Assembly: GCA_031081715.1 (NCBI GenBank)
Contig: JAVHMA010000019.1
Location: 1 to 64,000, forward strand
Reading direction: 5' to 3'
Length of the DNA: 64,000 nucleotides
Source: Armatimonadota bacterium
GTDB lineage: Bacteria; Sysuimicrobiota; Sysuimicrobiia; Sysuimicrobiales; Humicultoraceae
The notes beneath the pieces were generated by a model. That model did no database searches and was not told the DNA's origin. It saw only the letters and a list, made by a program, of their open reading frames with translations. This document shows positions 7,506 through 64,000 of the stretch, piece after piece. Numbering within the stretch: position 1 is the first letter of the stretch; every line of letters starts with the position of its first letter. A program made the position numbers and the translations under genes.

Positions 7506-8411
7506 TCACAGCTTCAGGCTCGGATCCAGGGCGTCCCGCAGCCCGTCGCCCACGAAGTTGATGACCAGCACGGACAGTAGGATCATGAAGCCCGGCGGCA
7601 CCCACAGCCAGGGCATCTGCTCCAGCACGGTGAGCGACTGGGCGTCGGTGAGCATGTTTCCCCACGACGGCGTGGGAGGCTGCACGCCGAGCCCCAGGAA
7701 CGACAGCGCCGCCTCGATGAGGATCGCGTTCGCCGTCCCGAAGGTCGCGGCCACCAGCACCGGCGCCATGGCGTTGGGGAGCAGGTGCCGGAGGATCAGA
7801 CGCACGTCGCCGGCCCCCATCGCGCGCGCGGCGTGCACGAACTCCTGCTGGCGGAGCGCCAGCACCTGTCCGCGCACGAGCCGGGCTACCGGCGGCCACC
7901 CGAGCAGCCCCAGCACCAAAATGACGTTCCAGAGGCTGGGCCGGCCGAAGACGCTCACGGCGAAGAGGATGATGATGAGCGGCGGGAACGAGAGCACGAT
8001 ATCCATCAGCCGGCTCAGCACCAGGTCCACGGTGCCGCCGTGGTAGGCGGCGGCCGCCCCCACCGCTGTCCCGATGACGACGTACATGGTGACCGCCAGC
8101 AGCCCGACGCTCAGCGAGACCCGGCTGGCGTAGACCAGGCGGCTGAGCACGTCGCGCCCGACGCTGTCGGTGCCAAGCGGGTGGACCGCCGACGGGGCGG
8201 CGCGGAAGGCGGTGGCGTCGATGGCCGTGGGGTTGTGGGGCGCCAACACCCCCGCCAGCACAGCCATCGCGGCGATCGCCGCGAGGACCGCCAGGCCCGC
8301 GACCGCCACGCGATGACGGAGGAAGCGGCGGGCGGCGAGCGTCCAGTACGACTGCGGACGGTCGAGCCGCGCGCCCCGCGTGGTAACCGCGGCGGAGATC
8401 GCGCTAGTCAT
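7506..8411 (-). CDS. ABC transporter permease, DppC family
   Basis: This 301-residue inner-membrane protein has an N-terminal OppC-type segment, about six membrane spans, and the EAA loop that contacts the ATPase (EFVHAARAMGAGD, about residues 203-226). It ends with the DALDPSLKL motif typical of DppC proteins. The ATG at 8411 overlaps the stop of the upstream dppB-like gene by eight bases, which favours it over an ATG further upstream at 8432. It forms the translocation pore with the DppB partner. The binding-protein gene follows 98 bases downstream. Confidence 0.9.
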   Translation of the reverse strand: MTSAISAAVTTRGARLDRPQSYWTLAARRFLRHRVAVAGLAVLAAIAAMAVLAGVLAPHNPTAIDATAFRAAPSAVHPLGTDSVGRDVLSRLVYASRVSLSVGLLAVTMYVVIGTAVGAAAAYHGGTVDLVLSRLMDIVLSFPPLIIILFAVSVFGRPSLWNVILVLGLLGWPPVARLVRGQVLALRQQEFVHAARAMGAGDVRLILRHLLPNAMAPVLVAATFGTANAILIEAALSFLGLGVQPPTPSWGNMLTDAQSLTVLEQMPWLWVPPGFMILLSVLVINFVGDGLRDALDPSLKL

Positions 8412-9354
8412 ACCGGATGCGCGGGTCCACAACCGAGTAGGTGATGTCGGCGAGCAGGTTGCCGAGCGCGACGAAGACCGCTGTGATCAGCGTGATCCCC
8501 ATGAGCACCGGGTAGTCCCGCTGGTTGATCGCCTCGATGGTCAGCCGGCCCATGCCGGGCCACTCGAAGACCTGCTCGGTGATCACCGCGCCGGCCAGCA
8601 GGGCCGGGATCTGCAGGCCGGCCAGCGTCACGACCGGGATCAGGGCGTTGCGGAGCGCGTGCCGGCGTACCACGAGGCGCTCCGCCAGTCCCTTCGCGTG
8701 CGCCGTGCGCACGTAGTCCTGGCCCAACACCTCGAGCATGCTCGACCGCACGTAGCGCGTGAGCGCGCCCGCCCCGGCCGCGGCCAGGACGGTCGCCGGC
8801 AGGACCAGGTGGTGCAGCGCGTCGAGCAGCCCGCCGTCGCCGCCCAGCGTCTGCGTGCCGCCCACCGGCAGCCAGCGTAGCCGCAGCGCGAAGATGTAGA
8901 TGCCGGCCAGGCCCAGGAAAAACGTCGGCAGGCTGATGCCCAGGAACGCGACGAACGTGGCGACGTAGTCCACCCACGTGTACCGGCGCGTCGCGGCCAC
9001 CATGCCCACCGGCACGGCGACCGCGTACGACAGCACGAGCGCGGTCACGGTCAGCGTCAACGTCGGCAGCACGCGCTCGCCGATCCGGCGCGCCACCGGC
9101 GCGCCGGTGCTGAACGAGTAGCCCAGGTTGCCGCGCAGCACCTCGCCCAGCCACTTCACGTAGCGGACCGCGATGGGGTCGTTGAGCCCGAGCTCGCGGC
9201 GCCGGATCTCCAGGTCGGCCTGCGTCGCGTTGGGGTCGATGAGCATCTGCACCGGATCGCCGGGCGTGAGCGAGAGGATCAGGTAGCTCAGCACCGTGAT
9301 GCCGAGCAGGATGGGAACGGTGATCAGGAGCCGGCGTGCGAGGTATCGCTGCAT
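8404..9354 (-). CDS. ABC transporter permease, DppB family
   Basis: This 316-residue integral membrane protein starts with the characteristic DppB/OppB segment (RRLLITVPILLGIT, then PGDPVQML). It carries about six membrane helices and the EAA loop (QDYVRTAHAKGL, residues 211-235), and ends VVDPRIRYD. It pairs with the adjacent DppC protein to form the pore of a peptide- or nickel-type importer. It lies downstream of nagA on the same strand with a gap of 21 bases, so it is probably part of the long htrA-glpX-nagZ-nagA operon. Confidence 0.9.
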   Translation of the reverse strand: MQRYLARRLLITVPILLGITVLSYLILSLTPGDPVQMLIDPNATQADLEIRRRELGLNDPIAVRYVKWLGEVLRGNLGYSFSTGAPVARRIGERVLPTLTLTVTALVLSYAVAVPVGMVAATRRYTWVDYVATFVAFLGISLPTFFLGLAGIYIFALRLRWLPVGGTQTLGGDGGLLDALHHLVLPATVLAAAGAGALTRYVRSSMLEVLGQDYVRTAHAKGLAERLVVRRHALRNALIPVVTLAGLQIPALLAGAVITEQVFEWPGMGRLTIEAINQRDYPVLMGITLITAVFVALGNLLADITYSVVDPRIRYD

Positions 9355-50258: not shown

Positions 50259-51230
50259 GTGCTCTCCGGAATGCTCGCTACTGCGGCGATCGCCGCGGTC
50301 GCCTGGGTCGTCGGCGGGGCGGTCCCGCTGATCGGCGCGCCCGTGCTGGCCATGTTGCTCGGCGTCGCGGCCCGTACCGCCACCGGGCTGCCCGCGGCGC
50401 TGCGGCCCGGCGTGGACTTCACCCTCAAACGCCTGCTGCGGCTGGCCATCATCCTGTTCGGGGCCACCCTGAGCTTCGCGGACGTGGTCCGCATCGGCGG
50501 GGCGTCGGTCGTCGTCGTCGGCGCGACCGTGGCGCTGGCGCTCGCGCTCACGGCGCTCATCGGCCGGGCGCTGCGCGCGCCCGAGGGCCTCGTGGGCCTG
50601 ATCGGCGTGGGCACGGCGATCTGCGGCGCCACGGCGATTCTCACCGTCGGGCCGATCGTGGACGCGCGCGAGGAGGAGATCGCGTTCGCGGTGACCACGA
50701 TCTTCCTCTTCAACATGCTGGCGGTCGTAGTCTACCCGCTGCTCGGGCACGGGCTGGCGCTGCCGGACGCGACCTTCGGCGTCTGGGCCGGCGCCGCGAT
50801 CCACGACACCTCGTCGGTGCTCGCGGCCGCGTTCGCGTACAGCGAGGCCTCCGGGCAGACCGCGACCGTGGTCAAGCTCACCCGCACCCTCGTGCTCGTG
50901 CCGCTGGCCCTCGCGTACGGGATCGCGCACAGCGCCCGCACCGCGGGCCGGGGCGGCCGCGTGCACCTGACGAAGATCTTCCCCTGGTTCATCCTCTGGT
51001 TCGCCGCCGCCGCGCTGCTCAACACCGCGGGCGCCATCGGCCCGGGGGCGGAGCGCGCGGCCGCGCTGGCCGGCCGGTTCCTGGTGGTGATGGTGATGGC
51101 CGCGGTCGGGCTGAGCGCGGACCTGGCCCGGATGCGGGCGATCGGGCCGCGGCCGCTCTACGTCGGGCTGGCGGCGTCGGTGGTGATCGCCCTGACGAGT
51201 ATTGTCTTGATCCGCGCCCTCATGGGCTGA
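50259..51230 (+). CDS. YeiH/UPF0324 family membrane protein (putative sulfate/anion exporter)
   Basis: This 323-residue protein has about ten membrane helices and the YeiH family pattern: LKRLLRLAIILFGATLSF, GVGTAICGATAILTVGPI, AGAAIHDTSSVLAAAF and VVKLTRTLVLVPLAL. Members have been suggested to export sulfate or similar anions, with limited experimental support. It follows the transporter permease by 57 bases on the same strand and could share its transcript. The GTG at 50259 is the likely start. Confidence 0.88.
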   Translation: MLSGMLATAAIAAVAWVVGGAVPLIGAPVLAMLLGVAARTATGLPAALRPGVDFTLKRLLRLAIILFGATLSFADVVRIGGASVVVVGATVALALALTALIGRALRAPEGLVGLIGVGTAICGATAILTVGPIVDAREEEIAFAVTTIFLFNMLAVVVYPLLGHGLALPDATFGVWAGAAIHDTSSVLAAAFAYSEASGQTATVVKLTRTLVLVPLALAYGIAHSARTAGRGGRVHLTKIFPWFILWFAAAALLNTAGAIGPGAERAAALAGRFLVVMVMAAVGLSADLARMRAIGPRPLYVGLAASVVIALTSIVLIRALMG

Positions 51231-51280: not shown

Positions 51281-51295
51281 TATTATGTAGGCACA
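51269..51295. promoter_or_regulatory. palindromic operator overlapping the vapBC promoter
   Basis: TGTGTCTACA (51269-51278) and TGTAGGCACA (51286-51295) are inverted repeats matching at nine of ten positions around the spacer ATTATTA. The palindrome covers the -10 box and the likely start point. That is where an antitoxin or antitoxin-toxin complex would bind to shut off its own operon. Confidence 0.7.
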
Positions 51296-51319
51296 ATGTC
51301 TCTATCCAGGAGACGCCTC

Positions 51320-51604
51320 ATGCGGACGGGGCGAGCCGGGGTGCGTGAAGCCAGAGCCCGGCTGAGCCATCTCATTCGGGACGTGCAGCGCGGCGGCCAG
51401 TGGGTGATCACGCAGCATGGGAAGCCGATCGCGCGGCTCGTGCCCGTGGGGGAGGAGTCGCTGTCCCTGGAGGAGCGGATCCGCCGGCTGGAGGAGGCCG
51501 GAGTGCTGGAGCCCCTCGGCCAAGCCCCTCATCCTCTTCCCCCGCCTCTGCCATTGGGGAAGAACCTGGCCCAGCGGTGGCTGCGGGAGGACCGCGACCG
51601 ATGA
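51320..51604 (+). CDS. antitoxin of the Phd/YefM type (VapB partner)
   Basis: This 94-residue protein has the Phd/YefM N-terminal fold (AGVREARARLSHLIRDVQ, then GGQWVITQHGKPIARLVPV), which dimerises and binds DNA. A charged C-terminal region follows, likely to wrap the toxin. The ATG at 51320 is preferred because it has an AGGAG site eight bases upstream; an in-frame ATG at 51296 lies at the edge of the operator palindrome. Its stop overlaps the toxin start by four bases. Confidence 0.88.
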   Translation: MRTGRAGVREARARLSHLIRDVQRGGQWVITQHGKPIARLVPVGEESLSLEERIRRLEEAGVLEPLGQAPHPLPPPLPLGKNLAQRWLREDRDR

Positions 51605-52041
51605 GGCCGCCCCGACAGGGCGTGCTCTACTGGGACAGCTCTGCGGTCCTGTCGCTGCTCTTTCAGGACGCGCACAGCCGGCGCGCGGCGGCCGCGGTGC
51701 GGAAGTCGGCGGTCCACCTGCTCTCCACGCTGGCCTGGGCCGAGGTGCATGCGGTAATCGCCCGGGCCAGGCGAGAGCGTGCCCTGGCTGATGTCCTGAT
51801 CGACGCCGCCCGCGAGGCGCTGGACCGGGGACCGTGGCGGCGGGCGAACATCTCGCCCGAGTGGGGCATGGTCCGCGAGATGGCATCCCGGTGGGCACTG
51901 CGGGGAGCCGACCTGTGGCACCTCTGCGCGGCCAAGACGCTCAAGGCCGACCTGCCAGAACTCGAGCTGCTCACCTTCGACGCACGGCTTCGAGCGGCGG
52001 CCCGGGCGGAGAGGCTCGCCCGTGGCGCCCGCGACAACTGA
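51601..52041 (+). CDS. vapC: VapC-type toxin, PIN-domain ribonuclease
   Basis: This 146-residue PIN-domain protein retains the expected acidic active-site residues: Asp12 (YWDSSAV), Glu48 (LAWAEVH), Asp104 (LRGADLWHL) and Asp127 (LLTFDARL). VapC toxins are magnesium-dependent RNases that cut tRNA or rRNA and halt translation until antitoxin is restored. All four residues look intact, so it is probably active. It is coupled to the antitoxin gene by a four-base overlap. Confidence 0.9.
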   Translation: MRPPRQGVLYWDSSAVLSLLFQDAHSRRAAAAVRKSAVHLLSTLAWAEVHAVIARARRERALADVLIDAAREALDRGPWRRANISPEWGMVREMASRWALRGADLWHLCAAKTLKADLPELELLTFDARLRAAARAERLARGARDN

Positions 52042-53175: not shown

Positions 53176-53262
53176 CTGCCTGCCCCACGTCGTCCGCAGA
53201 ACGGCCCGGCTAAGCGGCCGGGTGACAGCCGGTCCGCTCAAGCCGGTGGTTATCCGTCCCCT

Positions 53263-53496
53263 TCACGCCGACCGACGGTACGGCCGTACCGCCACCAAGT
53301 CGTCGTCCGAAACCGGTCGTACGTCCTGGACGTTCAGGGTGATCAGTGCCTCAGTTCTGCCGGACGCCGTGACGAACTCCACCTCAAGGCCATTGGACTC
53401 GTATACCTGCACCACGACACCCAGGTCACCCCGGCAGAGGTTCCGCTCGGGCAGGTCCCTGTCGAGCACAACGGTATCGAGAATGTGATAACTCAT
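53263..53496 (-). CDS. DUF4926 domain protein
   Basis: This 77-residue protein has the DUF4926 pattern: YHILDTVVLDRDLPERNL, then GDLGVVVQVYESNGLEVEFV and a C-terminal ALITLNVQDVRPVSDDDL. It looks like a small SH3-like beta barrel. Its ATG overlaps the DUF6883 gene stop by four bases, so the two are made together. DUF4926 proteins are often next to small uncharacterised partners, which suggests an antitoxin- or immunity-like role, but this is inference. Confidence 0.82.
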   Translation of the reverse strand: MSYHILDTVVLDRDLPERNLCRGDLGVVVQVYESNGLEVEFVTASGRTEALITLNVQDVRPVSDDDLVAVRPYRRSA

Positions 53497-53834
53497 CTCT
53501 CGCCTCCCGGGTAAGCCGTCACGAACCGCGGGAAGTCCTCGTCCGTGAGGACGACCCACACGCTGACGACCTCGGCCGAGTGGCCTGCGGGCCCGACCAG
53601 CGGTGCCCGGATCTCGTACTTCTGACCGTACGGACTCGTCTCCACCGCCGTTGCCTCTTGGGTCAGATGCTGAGCCCTCAGGTCCGCCTCCAGCCGTTGC
53701 CACTCCTTTCCAGAATAACCCAAACCGAAGAAGAACGCGGCCTTGAATCTACCCACCGGATGGCTCTCCGAGAGAAGATACCTGTGCAGCTTCGCATGCT
53801 CGATCACCGCACGGGCCGCGTTCGGTATCCTCAC
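53493..53834 (-). CDS. DUF6883 domain protein
   Basis: This 113-residue protein matches DUF6883 end to end: an N-terminal IPNAARAVIEHAKLHRYLL helix, then HPVGRFKAAFFFGLGYSG, and ETSPYGQKYEIRAPLVGPAG with VWVVLTDEDFPRFVTAYPG at the end. In larger proteins this domain is found at the C-terminus of secreted polymorphic toxins; here it stands alone with a DUF4926 partner. It starts at GTG 53834. The compact two-gene layout resembles toxin-antitoxin modules, but no activity is known to me. Confidence 0.82.
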   Translation of the reverse strand: MRIPNAARAVIEHAKLHRYLLSESHPVGRFKAAFFFGLGYSGKEWQRLEADLRAQHLTQEATAVETSPYGQKYEIRAPLVGPAGHSAEVVSVWVVLTDEDFPRFVTAYPGGER

Positions 53835-54226
53835 TCCGATAGCCCCTTCCCCAACCCGTCACAGACGCGTCAGAAGGAGAAGCGGTGCGGATAACTCTTG
53901 CCAGTCTAACACCCCGACCCTGTCAGCCTATCACGACTGGCCCGAGGAACACGCTCACAAACAATCACAATCATCCGTAGGGTTGCCGTGGCCCCCTGGT
54001 GGTTCCCATGCCAGGTGTTGTACGGAGCTTATCTATCAGTCTACCATCCTGGCATCGGCGCGCAGAACCCGGCTCAGCATCCATCCGTCGGACTTCTCAC
54101 GCCGTGCGGCCCTGGCTCAGCCCATGAGGGGCGTGTCTCCAATGGGAAGGGCTCGCCCCATGCCCCTGCTCTCCGCGACCACGGGGTGAGCGAGGCGAGG
54201 ACATCTGTGTTATCCTGCACCTGCGT
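53835..54226. other. gene-free 392-base spacer at the edge of the lower-GC segment
   Basis: No coding frame, tRNA, repeat array or clear terminator was seen here. Composition is intermediate between the low-GC segment to the left and the GC-rich P1 peptidase gene to the right. A GTCTAAC at 53904-53910 was examined as a possible attC box, but no partner box follows. Confidence 0.5.
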
Positions 54227-55204
54227 ATGCCCTCGCTCACCGACATCCCCGGGCTCCGAGTCGGCCACGCCACCGATCCCGTGGGCCTCACCGGCTGCAC
54301 GGTCGTGCTCTGCGAGGGGGGTGCGGTCGCCAGCGTGGACATCCGGGGGGCCGCGCCCGGCACGCGCGAGACGGCGCTGCTCGCCCCGGGAGCGCTTGTT
54401 GAACGTATCCACGCCGTGCTGCTGACCGGCGGCAGCGCCTTCGGGCTGGCGGCCGCCGACGGCGTCATGCGCTTCCTCGAGGAGCGAGGCGCCGGCTTCG
54501 AGACCGGCGTCGCGAGGGTGCCGATCGTGCCGGCCGCGGTGCTCTTCGATCTGGCCGTGGGCGACCCGGGCGCGCGGCCCGACGCCGCCATGGGCTACGC
54601 CGCCTGCCAGGCGGCGCACGACGGCCCGGTGGAGGAAGGTAGCGTGGGCGCCGGTACGGGCGCGACGCTGGGCAAGGTGCTGGGCCCGCAGTGCGCGATG
54701 AAAGGCGGGGTCGGTTCGTGGAGCATCCGTCTGCCCGAGGGGCCCACGGTCGCGGCCCTGGTGGTGGTCAACGCGCTCGGCGACGTCATCGACGACGTGA
54801 CCGGCGCGATCCTGGCCGGCGCGCGGGCCGACGGCCGGTTCGCCCGCGCCTCCGACACGGTGCTGGCCGGGGCGCTGCAGGCCGCCTTCGGCGCCAACAC
54901 CACGCTCGCGGTGATCGCCACCGATGTGGCGCTGACGCGCGAGCAAGCGTCGCGCCTGGCAGTGCAGGGCCAGGCCGGGCTGTCGCGCACGATCGTCCCG
55001 TCGCACACGGTCTACGACGGCGACACGGTGTTCGCGCTCGCGACGGGCGCGCGACCGGCCGCCGGCGACGCCGCGGGCCTGCCGCTGCGTCTCGGCGAGG
55101 CCGCGGCGCGGGCCGCGGCCGAGTCCGTCAAGCGGGCGGTGCGCGCCGCCGCGGGCCTGGGCGGGGTGCCGTGCTGGGCCGACCTCCAGCGCGGCGGGGC
55201 ATGA
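54227..55204 (+). CDS. P1 family peptidase (DmpA/aminopeptidase-like, self-processing)
   Basis: This 325-residue N-terminal-nucleophile hydrolase family member has the P1 pattern: TDIPGLRVGHATD, LLTGGSAFGLAAADGVM, VGAGTGATLGK and the autocleavage site GANTTLAVIATD. Chain cleavage would occur between Asn224 and Thr225, freeing Thr225 as the catalytic nucleophile. Relatives act as D- or L-aminopeptidases or beta-peptidases. No signal peptide is visible. It precedes an epimerase-like gene and a dipeptide importer, which fits peptide or amino-amide use. Confidence 0.9.
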   Translation: MPSLTDIPGLRVGHATDPVGLTGCTVVLCEGGAVASVDIRGAAPGTRETALLAPGALVERIHAVLLTGGSAFGLAAADGVMRFLEERGAGFETGVARVPIVPAAVLFDLAVGDPGARPDAAMGYAACQAAHDGPVEEGSVGAGTGATLGKVLGPQCAMKGGVGSWSIRLPEGPTVAALVVVNALGDVIDDVTGAILAGARADGRFARASDTVLAGALQAAFGANTTLAVIATDVALTREQASRLAVQGQAGLSRTIVPSHTVYDGDTVFALATGARPAAGDAAGLPLRLGEAAARAAAESVKRAVRAAAGLGGVPCWADLQRGGA

Positions 55205-62984: not shown

Positions 62985-63076
62985 GCAGGAGGGCGCGCGC
63001 GGTACGCGCCCCGCGACGGTACGAAGGCTGCGGACCGTAGACGCGGACGGCCGCGAGAGCTGGGACGGCGCCTAGA

Positions 63077-63134
63077 CGCTAACGCTGCCGCTCGGCGGCC
63101 GGCAGCGCGGGTCCGCTGAAGCGGCTTGTTAGAC
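63077..63134 (+). repeat. integron attC-like recombination site, upstream
   Basis: This 58-base site has CGCTAAC (63077-63083) as R'', GCCGCTCGGC (63087-63096) as L'', GCTGAAGCGGC (63115-63125) as L', and GTTAGAC (63128-63134) as a perfect GTTRRRY R' box. L' pairs with L'' with one mismatch and one unpaired extra base, the pattern integron integrases use to choose the strand. R'' deviates from the RYYYAAC consensus. Confidence 0.72.
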
Positions 63135-63155
63135 GGCGTATCCACACGGTACAGT
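63126..63155 (+). promoter_or_regulatory. possible cassette promoter overlapping attC
   Basis: TTGTTA (63126-63131) and TACAGT (63150-63155) are 18 bases apart, six bases before the antitoxin ATG. Transcription could start at or next to that ATG, giving a nearly leaderless message. The -35 box overlaps the attC R' box, so it would be rebuilt by each cassette insertion. Confidence 0.35.
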
Positions 63156-63161
63156 AGATGC

Positions 63162-63356
63162 ATGAGGCTCACCATCGACCTTTCACCTACCCAGGCTGAG
63201 CGGCTGCGCCATCAGGCGGAACTTCTCGGCATTGCACCGGAGGATCTCGCTCGCGCGGCACTTTCAGACCTCCTGGCAACCCGAGACGAAGATTTCCAGG
63301 CAGCCGCCGATCGAGTACTGCGGAAGAACGAGGAGCTGTACCGGCGCCTCGCGTGA
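63162..63356 (+). CDS. antitoxin of the Doc-associated type
   Basis: This 64-residue protein ([20 protein letters not shown] at the start, then [16 protein letters not shown] and a helical [14 protein letters not shown] tail) resembles small DNA-binding antitoxins paired with Doc toxins. The N-terminus would bind DNA and the tail would neutralise the toxin. The ATG at 63162 is close to the cassette edge, and its stop overlaps the doc start by four bases. The frame is intact. Confidence 0.82.
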
Positions 63357-63740
63357 CGCGGTATCTCACGCTGGGGGAGGTGGTTGAACTTCACCGCCTC
63401 GTCCTCGGAGCTACCCGTGGCGCCCCAGGGATTCGCGACTTGGCCGCACTGGAGTCCGCTGTCGCTCAGCCTAAGGCCACCTTCGGCGGCACCGACCTGT
63501 ATCCCACGTTGATTGAGAAGGCTGCCGCCCTGTGCTTCGCGCTGGTTCGTGGTCACCCATTTGTCGACGGCAACAAGCACCGGACACGCTGCCATGGAAA
63601 CCTTCCTGGTTCTGAACGGAGCCGAGATCGATGCCCCTGTCGATGAACAGGAGCGCCTTATGCTCGATCTGGCCGCCGGTTGGATCAACCGCAGCGATCT
63701 GACCAACTGGCTCAGTCTGCATGTGAAGCCGCCCGAGTGA
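63353..63740 (+). pseudogene. doc: Doc/Fic-family toxin, frameshifted in the catalytic motif
   Basis: The gene starts at GTG 63353 with Doc-like sequence ([44 protein letters not shown]) and reaches the Fic motif HPFVDGNK. It then shifts frame at about 63577-63580. The rest of the domain ([18 protein letters not shown] ... LAAGWINRSDLTNWL) continues in the next frame to 63740. Restoring two bases would read [15 protein letters not shown], the normal Doc sequence. As written, the product ends at 63646 without the end of the active site, so the toxin should be dead. Confidence 0.85.
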
Positions 63741-63749
63741 TTCTACGCC

Positions 63750-63808
63750 GTCTAACGCGCAGCATCAGCGGCGGCGCGGAGCGCCGGCCGCTGCATGCTG
63801 TGTTGGGC
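63750..63808 (+). repeat. integron attC site, downstream
   Basis: This 59-base site has perfect consensus outer boxes: R'' GTCTAAC (63750-63756, RYYYAAC) and R' GTTGGGC (63802-63808, GTTRRRY). The inner boxes CAGCATCAGC (63760-63769) and GCTGCATGCTG (63790-63800) pair completely except for one unpaired extra G, the hallmark extrahelical base of attC. Confidence 0.85.
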
Positions 63809-63818
63809 GGCCGTCCGG

Positions 63819-64000
63819 TCATGACGTGTTGGATGCGAAGAACTGCTGCGCCGCCTCCGGATCGTCCTCGAAGACCCGCGCCGCGGTGATGAGCCCATCA
63901 TGGACCTCGTATACGACCACGCGCAGGAACGACGGGCCGGGCGGCTTGCCGATTCGGACGAGAAGGAACGCGTGGCGGTCGCTCTCGCCGAGATCGAGGA
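63819..64000 (-). CDS. SnoaL/NTF2-like protein, C-terminal part (runs off the window)
   Basis: About 60 codons are visible, ending at a TGA (63819-63821). The sequence (RHAFLLVRIGKPPGPSFLRV, then VVYEVHDGLITAARVFEDDP and AAQQFFASN) resembles the last strands of small SnoaL/NTF2-like fold proteins. The gene is incomplete at its start. It lies just past the downstream attC site but on the opposite strand, so it is either a reversed cassette gene or flanking chromosome. Confidence 0.65.
   Translation of the reverse strand, partial: LDLGESDRHAFLLVRIGKPPGPSFLRVVVYEVHDGLITAARVFEDDPEAAQQFFASNTS

Follow-up and report, generated by a model that had tools for sequence, protein, structure and literature searches.

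The right end of the analysed sequence very probably carries the distal part of an array of integron cassettes, the integrase gene being missing from the assembly (a CALIN), with cassettes to be read on the minus strand. The sequence, here called the window, comprises bases 1-64000 of a contig of 66,448 bases (C39), which belongs to a genome of 2.98 Mb in 49 contigs, 97.06% complete. From the contig end inwards the order would be an epimerase cassette, attC3, a cassette with hydrolase and SnoaL-like genes, attC2, a cassette with an antisense Doc gene, and attC1, where the array would stop beside a host SDR gene. The features are listed in Table 1.

Table 1. Integron-related features of the window, the contig end and three further contigs
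Feature	Position	Strand	Details
attI-side attC	53193-53258	-	R1 28.7 bits, E 4.5e-5
Cassette at attI-like site	53202-53894	-	DUF6883 and DUF4926 genes, in sense; Pfam
attI-like site, no integrase gene adjoining	53895-53930	-	Motif at 53906-53930
attC1, last attC of array, SDR-gene side	63075-63137	-	R1 26.8 bits, E 1.4e-4
Doc cassette, in attC orientation	63083-63755	-	First base 63755; last base is G of attC1 R' box
Antitoxin-like gene, 64 residues	63162-63356	+	Antisense to cassette
Doc/Fic gene, frame broken	63353-63740	+	First half ends 63646, second half in another frame
attC2, between Doc and hydrolase/SnoaL cassettes	63747-63811	-	R1 42.1 bits, E 1.3e-8
Next cassette, part within the window	63812-64000	-	SnoaL-like gene, stop at 63819; Pfam
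attC3, past the window	contig 65132-65209	-	R1 34.6 bits
C21, two attC sites			29.4 and 25.3 bits
C32, two attC sites			38.9 and 32.1 bits
C46, two attC sites			43.9 and 30.5 bits

Structure of the cassette array

The initial annotation described two attC-like sites in one orientation that bound a cassette, and both were recovered with a covariance model (R1) as attC1 and attC2. Together with attC3 they lie within 2.2 kb. In attC2 and attC3 all 8 variable positions of the R'' and R' consensus (RYYYAAC and GTTRRRY) are met, with pairing at the foot of the hairpin, while the R' box of attC1 is degenerate (GTTAGCG). The paired inner boxes with a single unpaired base, which had been noted for both sites, are clean in attC2; in attC1 the sequence, read by eye, has an extra T and one A/C mismatch.

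The bounds of the Doc cassette were placed on the assumption that cleavage follows the G^TT rule known from other integrons. The bottom strand of each attC, which is here the plus strand, would fold into a hairpin that the integron integrase would cut between G and TT, and the excised circle would be joined to another attC or to attI. As a result of such cutting and joining the start of a cassette would match its own R'' box. For each cassette, 12 bases counted from the G of the R' box before it were compared with the reverse complement of the cassette's own R'' side. All four cassettes have matched ends, with 12, 10, 10 and 10 identical bases of 12, against 5-8 of 12 in a swapped control of four starts by four R'' boxes. 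The complementarity reported earlier for the first 12 bases of the Doc cassette is complete, and 13 consecutive bases agree. The difference between own pairs and swapped pairs supports the site-specific capture proposed in the initial annotation. The comparison is symmetric in both directions and thus cannot set the orientation.

The initial annotation proposed to look for further cassettes to the right of 64 kb, and these are present. Past the window follow, in order, an alpha/beta hydrolase gene, attC3, an NAD-dependent epimerase gene and half of a fourth attC, which gives two more cassettes. From the G of the fourth R' box, at 66321, there remain 127 bases to the contig end at 66448. The last 103 bases have eight matches of 71-82% identity in G008, a genome of the same family; among the 13 genomes searched there was, beyond their own place, no match outside G008. 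We infer that an IS-like mobile element cut the fourth attC and interrupted the assembly there.

Three other contigs (C21, C32 and C46) have two attC sites apiece, giving five clusters in the genome when the two places on C39 are included. Genes in or beside the cassettes of these contigs encode a NERD protein, a SnoaL-like protein and an addiction-module component, and there is a HicB-like match under the cut-off. Between attC2 and one of the C21 sites 42 bases are common at 90%. The region of the array itself has one full copy in the genome. The Doc cassette is an integron cassette, as first annotated, but one of several rather than an isolated capture.

Integrase and attI-like site

The earlier observation that no integrase is visible extends to the whole genome. 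With TIGR02249 and the G008 integrase as queries, a search of all 49 contigs to E 0.001 gave two Xer-like proteins and no integron integrase or fragment of one. These two tyrosine recombinases were considered as integron integrases and rejected, as they score below the TIGR02249 cut-off and lie beside what are presumably phosphopentomutase and topA/rpsB genes, the usual neighbours of XerD and XerC.

Among the genomes searched, intI above the curated cut-off was found in 5 of 61, all five within the same order: G002, G007 and G008 of the same family (3 of 11 genomes), and G013 and G021. The G008 integrase has 51.6% identity to IntI1 over 71% of it and 62% to the IntI of Gemmatirosa. Attached to the intI genes of G007, G008, G013 and G021, just downstream, are attI-like sites. 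The first cassettes of G013 and G021 carry a RibD-like gene (under the cut-off) and a methyltransferase gene, the latter in G021 (L037 10578-11063, after its attI-like site) and possibly, we assume, an arsenite methyltransferase gene. Integron-integrase fragments or split genes are present in G004, G009 and G010. The intI-like fragments, split frames or in-frame stops are located, in four genomes of the family, on G004:C2, G009:C5 and C113, G010:C170, and G008:C1 and C8.

About 130 extra N-terminal residues, ahead of the integrase domains, were observed in the integrases of G008 (L035 7612-8970) and G013 (L036 8773-10152). HARP was tried as the N-terminal part of one relative's integrase and was rejected as a weak match (E 0.073, below the cut-off). 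The complete G008 integrase is near a contig end, where the sequence at L035 9150-9741 resembles the 3' part of a 16S rRNA gene.

An attI-like site without an adjoining integrase gene was found in the window at 53.9 kb. The motif has a single copy in the genome, none in a reversed control and none in 100 shuffles of the window. In G007, G008, G009, G010 and G013 a similar motif follows intI or what remains of that gene; the sites after intI in G002, G004 and G021 are not matched by it. Read by eye against the relatives, the site in the window is short of 12-13 bases that include their left box, and for this reason it is probably damaged. The cassette at the site begins with 10 of 12 bases matching its own R'' side, and its attC has a degenerate R' box (GTTCTGC). 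Between the attI-like site and the gene at 54227, presumably a host gene for an S58-type peptidase, there is no intI, which a complete integron would have next to attI and its cassettes.

In a comparison with G005 the two flanks, 50265-51190 and 54224-55193, proved collinear, the intervening block being different. G005 was rejected as a clean empty site for the 51.2-54.2 kb block, with 1.8 kb between its flanks unmatched at E 1e-10. The block beside the attI-like site also contains a Phd-like antitoxin gene and a PIN-domain gene (51293-52038).

We infer that an integrase built the array. Given 49 contigs and a completeness of 97.06%, the absence of intI is no proof of its loss. Loss is nevertheless the outcome to which we lean, and concealment of the gene in an assembly gap has a considerable, less than even, chance. 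The array could then be part of a complete integron with intI that the assembler split at the IS-like element, the host still having a working integrase; this is a serious possibility, with a somewhat less than even chance. The contig does end 127 bases past the fourth R' G, inside the stretch with eight matches in G008, and three of the seven intI loci in relatives that are over the cut-off or split (G010, G013 and G021) break within about 0.7 kb on the cassette side. Against it, no piece of intI is found in any of the 49 contigs, and the attI-like site is followed by the peptidase gene with no intI between. The intI loci of G002 (two loci) and G007 are well inside contigs, and the contig end near that of G008 is on the side opposite the cassettes.

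Orientation of the cassettes

The initial annotation implied a plus orientation, which the present results reverse. The plus strand is the predicted bottom strand, with the cassettes running along minus, as judged by strand scores, the arm that holds the unpaired bases, and folds. R1 scores attC2 at 42.1 bits on minus and 19.1 on plus, and gives attC1 no plus-strand match at E up to 10; attC1, attC2, attC3 and the attI-side attC are each best on minus. Extrahelical bases are by definition on the R''-L'' arm (PMC2727003), and the minus reading puts them there wholly in attC2 and mostly in attC3 (3 vs 1). In the fold of the attC2 plus strand, single unpaired bases lie on the 3' arm, and an equally good fold was found in none of 200 shuffles. 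For attC1 the fold has z -2.38 on plus vs -1.09 on minus, and for the attI-side attC both strands fold about equally. Minus is also the strand of the SnoaL-like, alpha/beta hydrolase, epimerase, DUF6883 and DUF4926 genes, and in these cassettes the distance from the stop of the last gene to the attC span is 7, 18 and 4 bases.

The sole exception among the cassette genes is the antitoxin-Doc pair on plus. The 64-residue antitoxin has no Pfam family above the cut-off and is 59% identical over 64/64 residues to the product of the gene preceding Doc in the integron of Gemmatirosa. The first half of Doc, a frame of 97 residues, matches PF02661 (E 1.5e-15), and the two halves match TIGR01550 at positions 6-73 and 75-120, both under the cut-off. 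The reading frame is interrupted within the Fic motif, which may be due either to mutation in the cell or to an assembly error. An intact Doc toxin with a Fic motif, as in a Phd-Doc-like type II toxin-antitoxin system, is thus not found here. The first half of Doc has matches in 339 records of a plasmid collection, the top-ranked being Gemmatirosa with 66% identity over 74 residues; the second half is 57% identical to its Gemmatirosa homologue. The Gemmatirosa Doc is uninterrupted, so that an intact relative exists. There the pair sits between two attC sites, in a single frame and in sense, and given this an antisense pair is unexpected and counts against the minus-strand array favoured here.

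An array in plus orientation would place Doc in sense, as its Gemmatirosa homologue is, and for attC2 and attC3 either strand yields R'' and R' boxes that agree with the consensus. We consider this improbable, with a gap of 23 bits for attC2, no plus match for attC1, and the genes of the other cassettes on minus. The unpaired bases, which under the minus reading are on the R''-L'' arm, and the folds agree in opposing it by the criterion of PMC2727003, and in the Gemmatirosa integron all 77 places with a match score higher on the intI strand.

Among 86 distinct R1 matches, 66 have G as the extra top-strand base, 11 have C, 5 T and 1 A, and 3 lack it. As every one of the ten training sites carries G at this position, the base counts lean that way. 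The second position, six bases on, has A in 59 of the 86, and G and A occur together in 42. On the bottom strand the pattern reads T-N6-C, an arrangement that PMC3053210 reports as well excised by IntI1. The conserved extrahelical base of described attC sites is a bottom-strand G in the account given in PMC2727003, whereas here it is mostly C. The same paper reports that a change of the conserved G to C in the VCR had little effect.

Specificity of the attC matches

A home-made attC scanner was dropped: its best scores in the window (16.8 on plus and 17.5 on minus) did not stand apart from those of shuffles (up to 17.3), and the covariance model was used instead. R1 was built from ten aligned attC sites of five relatives (G002, G004, G007, G008 and G009), excluding the genome under study, with a hand-set secondary structure; the attC scores given here are thus those of a self-built model trained on relatives. 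It was applied to the window, the end of C39 and contig C21, and the E-values of attC1 and attC2 refer to 100 kb. A fold-based script also found the right site, the third site past the window and similar hairpins near the integrases of relatives; attC1 falls below its consensus filter. Rfam at gathering thresholds gave no match within the 64-kb window.

As controls, R1 detected the aadA1 attC of a class 1 integron at 33.7 bits and missed the dfrA1 attC of the same stretch, and a Proteus stretch had no site at E up to 1. In 43.5 kb of the Gemmatirosa integron there were 77 matches at E up to 0.1 on the minus strand, which is the intI strand; 51 of these places match on plus too, always at a lower score.

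Sites at E up to 0.01 were found in 19 of 43 genomes, the own genome counted in: 11/11 in the own family, 4/10 in f2, 0/1 in f3, 3/7 in f4, 0/1 in f5, 1/1 in f6 and 0/12 in f7, another family of the order. In this search 87 candidates were scored per genome under strict filters. It missed two weaker sites of the own genome, and the zeros of the families are therefore soft. Five of the eleven same-family genomes have just one or two matches each. One f7 genome (G038) has an integrase-like fragment at 155 bits, below the cut-off, yet no attC among its 87 candidates. G005 has two isolated R1 matches of 29.8 and 30.5 bits with integrase matches at Xer level only, so that a score of about 30 bits alone is no proof. 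attC1 and the attI-side attC score in this range and rest on matched ends and context.

The sites are very unlikely to be chance palindromes or other palindromic repeats such as REP elements or transposon ends, as the GC-rich region (R1 matches have 64-78% GC) and the isolated matches in G005 might suggest; opposed to this are the E-values of attC2 and attC1, the matched ends in every cassette, the single full copy of the region and the lack of sites in f7 as searched. The covariance check proposed in the initial annotation, run with R1, sets both sites apart from background.

Comparison with known integrons

By the rule given in PMC9668308 and PMC9024848, attC sites that cluster without an integron integrase are classed as a CALIN. 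The array shares with this type at least two attC sites close together and cassettes; no integrase was found nearby or elsewhere in the assembly, in which the contig ends inside the array. It differs from the description in having an attI-like site with one cassette 9 kb off on the same contig, and three more contigs with two attC sites.

Plasmid 1 of Gemmatirosa kalamazoonensis (NZ_CP007129.1) is named among large integrons in PMC9024848. Its integron resembles the present one in having attC sites found by R1, an IntI close to that of G008 and a homologous antitoxin-Doc cassette; it differs in the 77 attC places, the presence of intI, and a Doc in one frame and in sense. The archaeal integrons of PMC9668308 have attI just downstream of intI, as do the attI-like sites in the relatives; in contrast, the host here is bacterial and intI was not found in its own genome. 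The class 1 mobile integron is similar in its aadA1 attC, found by R1, and in the identity of IntI1 to the G008 integrase, and different in its dfrA1 attC, undetected by R1.

The host is probably a bacterium of the phylum CSP1-3, which has been renamed Sysuimicrobiota, with one class and one order, in PMC11604079, and the word integron is absent from the main text of that paper. No paper joining integrons with CSP1-3 or Sysuimicrobiota was found, preprints and most subscription journals being outside the scope of the search, which agrees with the earlier remark that few integrons have been studied in the lineage. Armatimonadetes together with integron gave none among the matches listed; older papers may file such genomes there.

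The CALIN as a kind of element is well known, and what gives the present one its value is the lineage it comes from, together with the orphan attI and a Doc cassette shared with Gemmatirosa. A reading that joins these has, in our view, a nearly even chance. According to it Sysuimicrobiota would have sedentary integrons of a family of their own, not described before, in which attI follows intI and the extrahelical bottom-strand bases of attC are mostly C and T, spaced six bases apart. The integrase would have been lost in the organism of the window, leaving a damaged attI and five cassette clusters. The toxin-antitoxin cassette in common with an integron of Gemmatimonadota would point to exchange between phyla, and the antisense pair would have gained its link to attC separately or been inverted.

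Integrons would thereby be extended to an uncultured phylum, with integrases, attI and attC sites open to comparison. The clusters suggest that cassettes may outlast the enzyme, and the homologous Doc cassette offers a tangible starting point for tracing the movement of cassettes between Sysuimicrobiota and Gemmatimonadota. Elsewhere in the window, distant second copies (37-47% identity) of the permeases at 57.7-59.5 kb were observed at 7512-9333.
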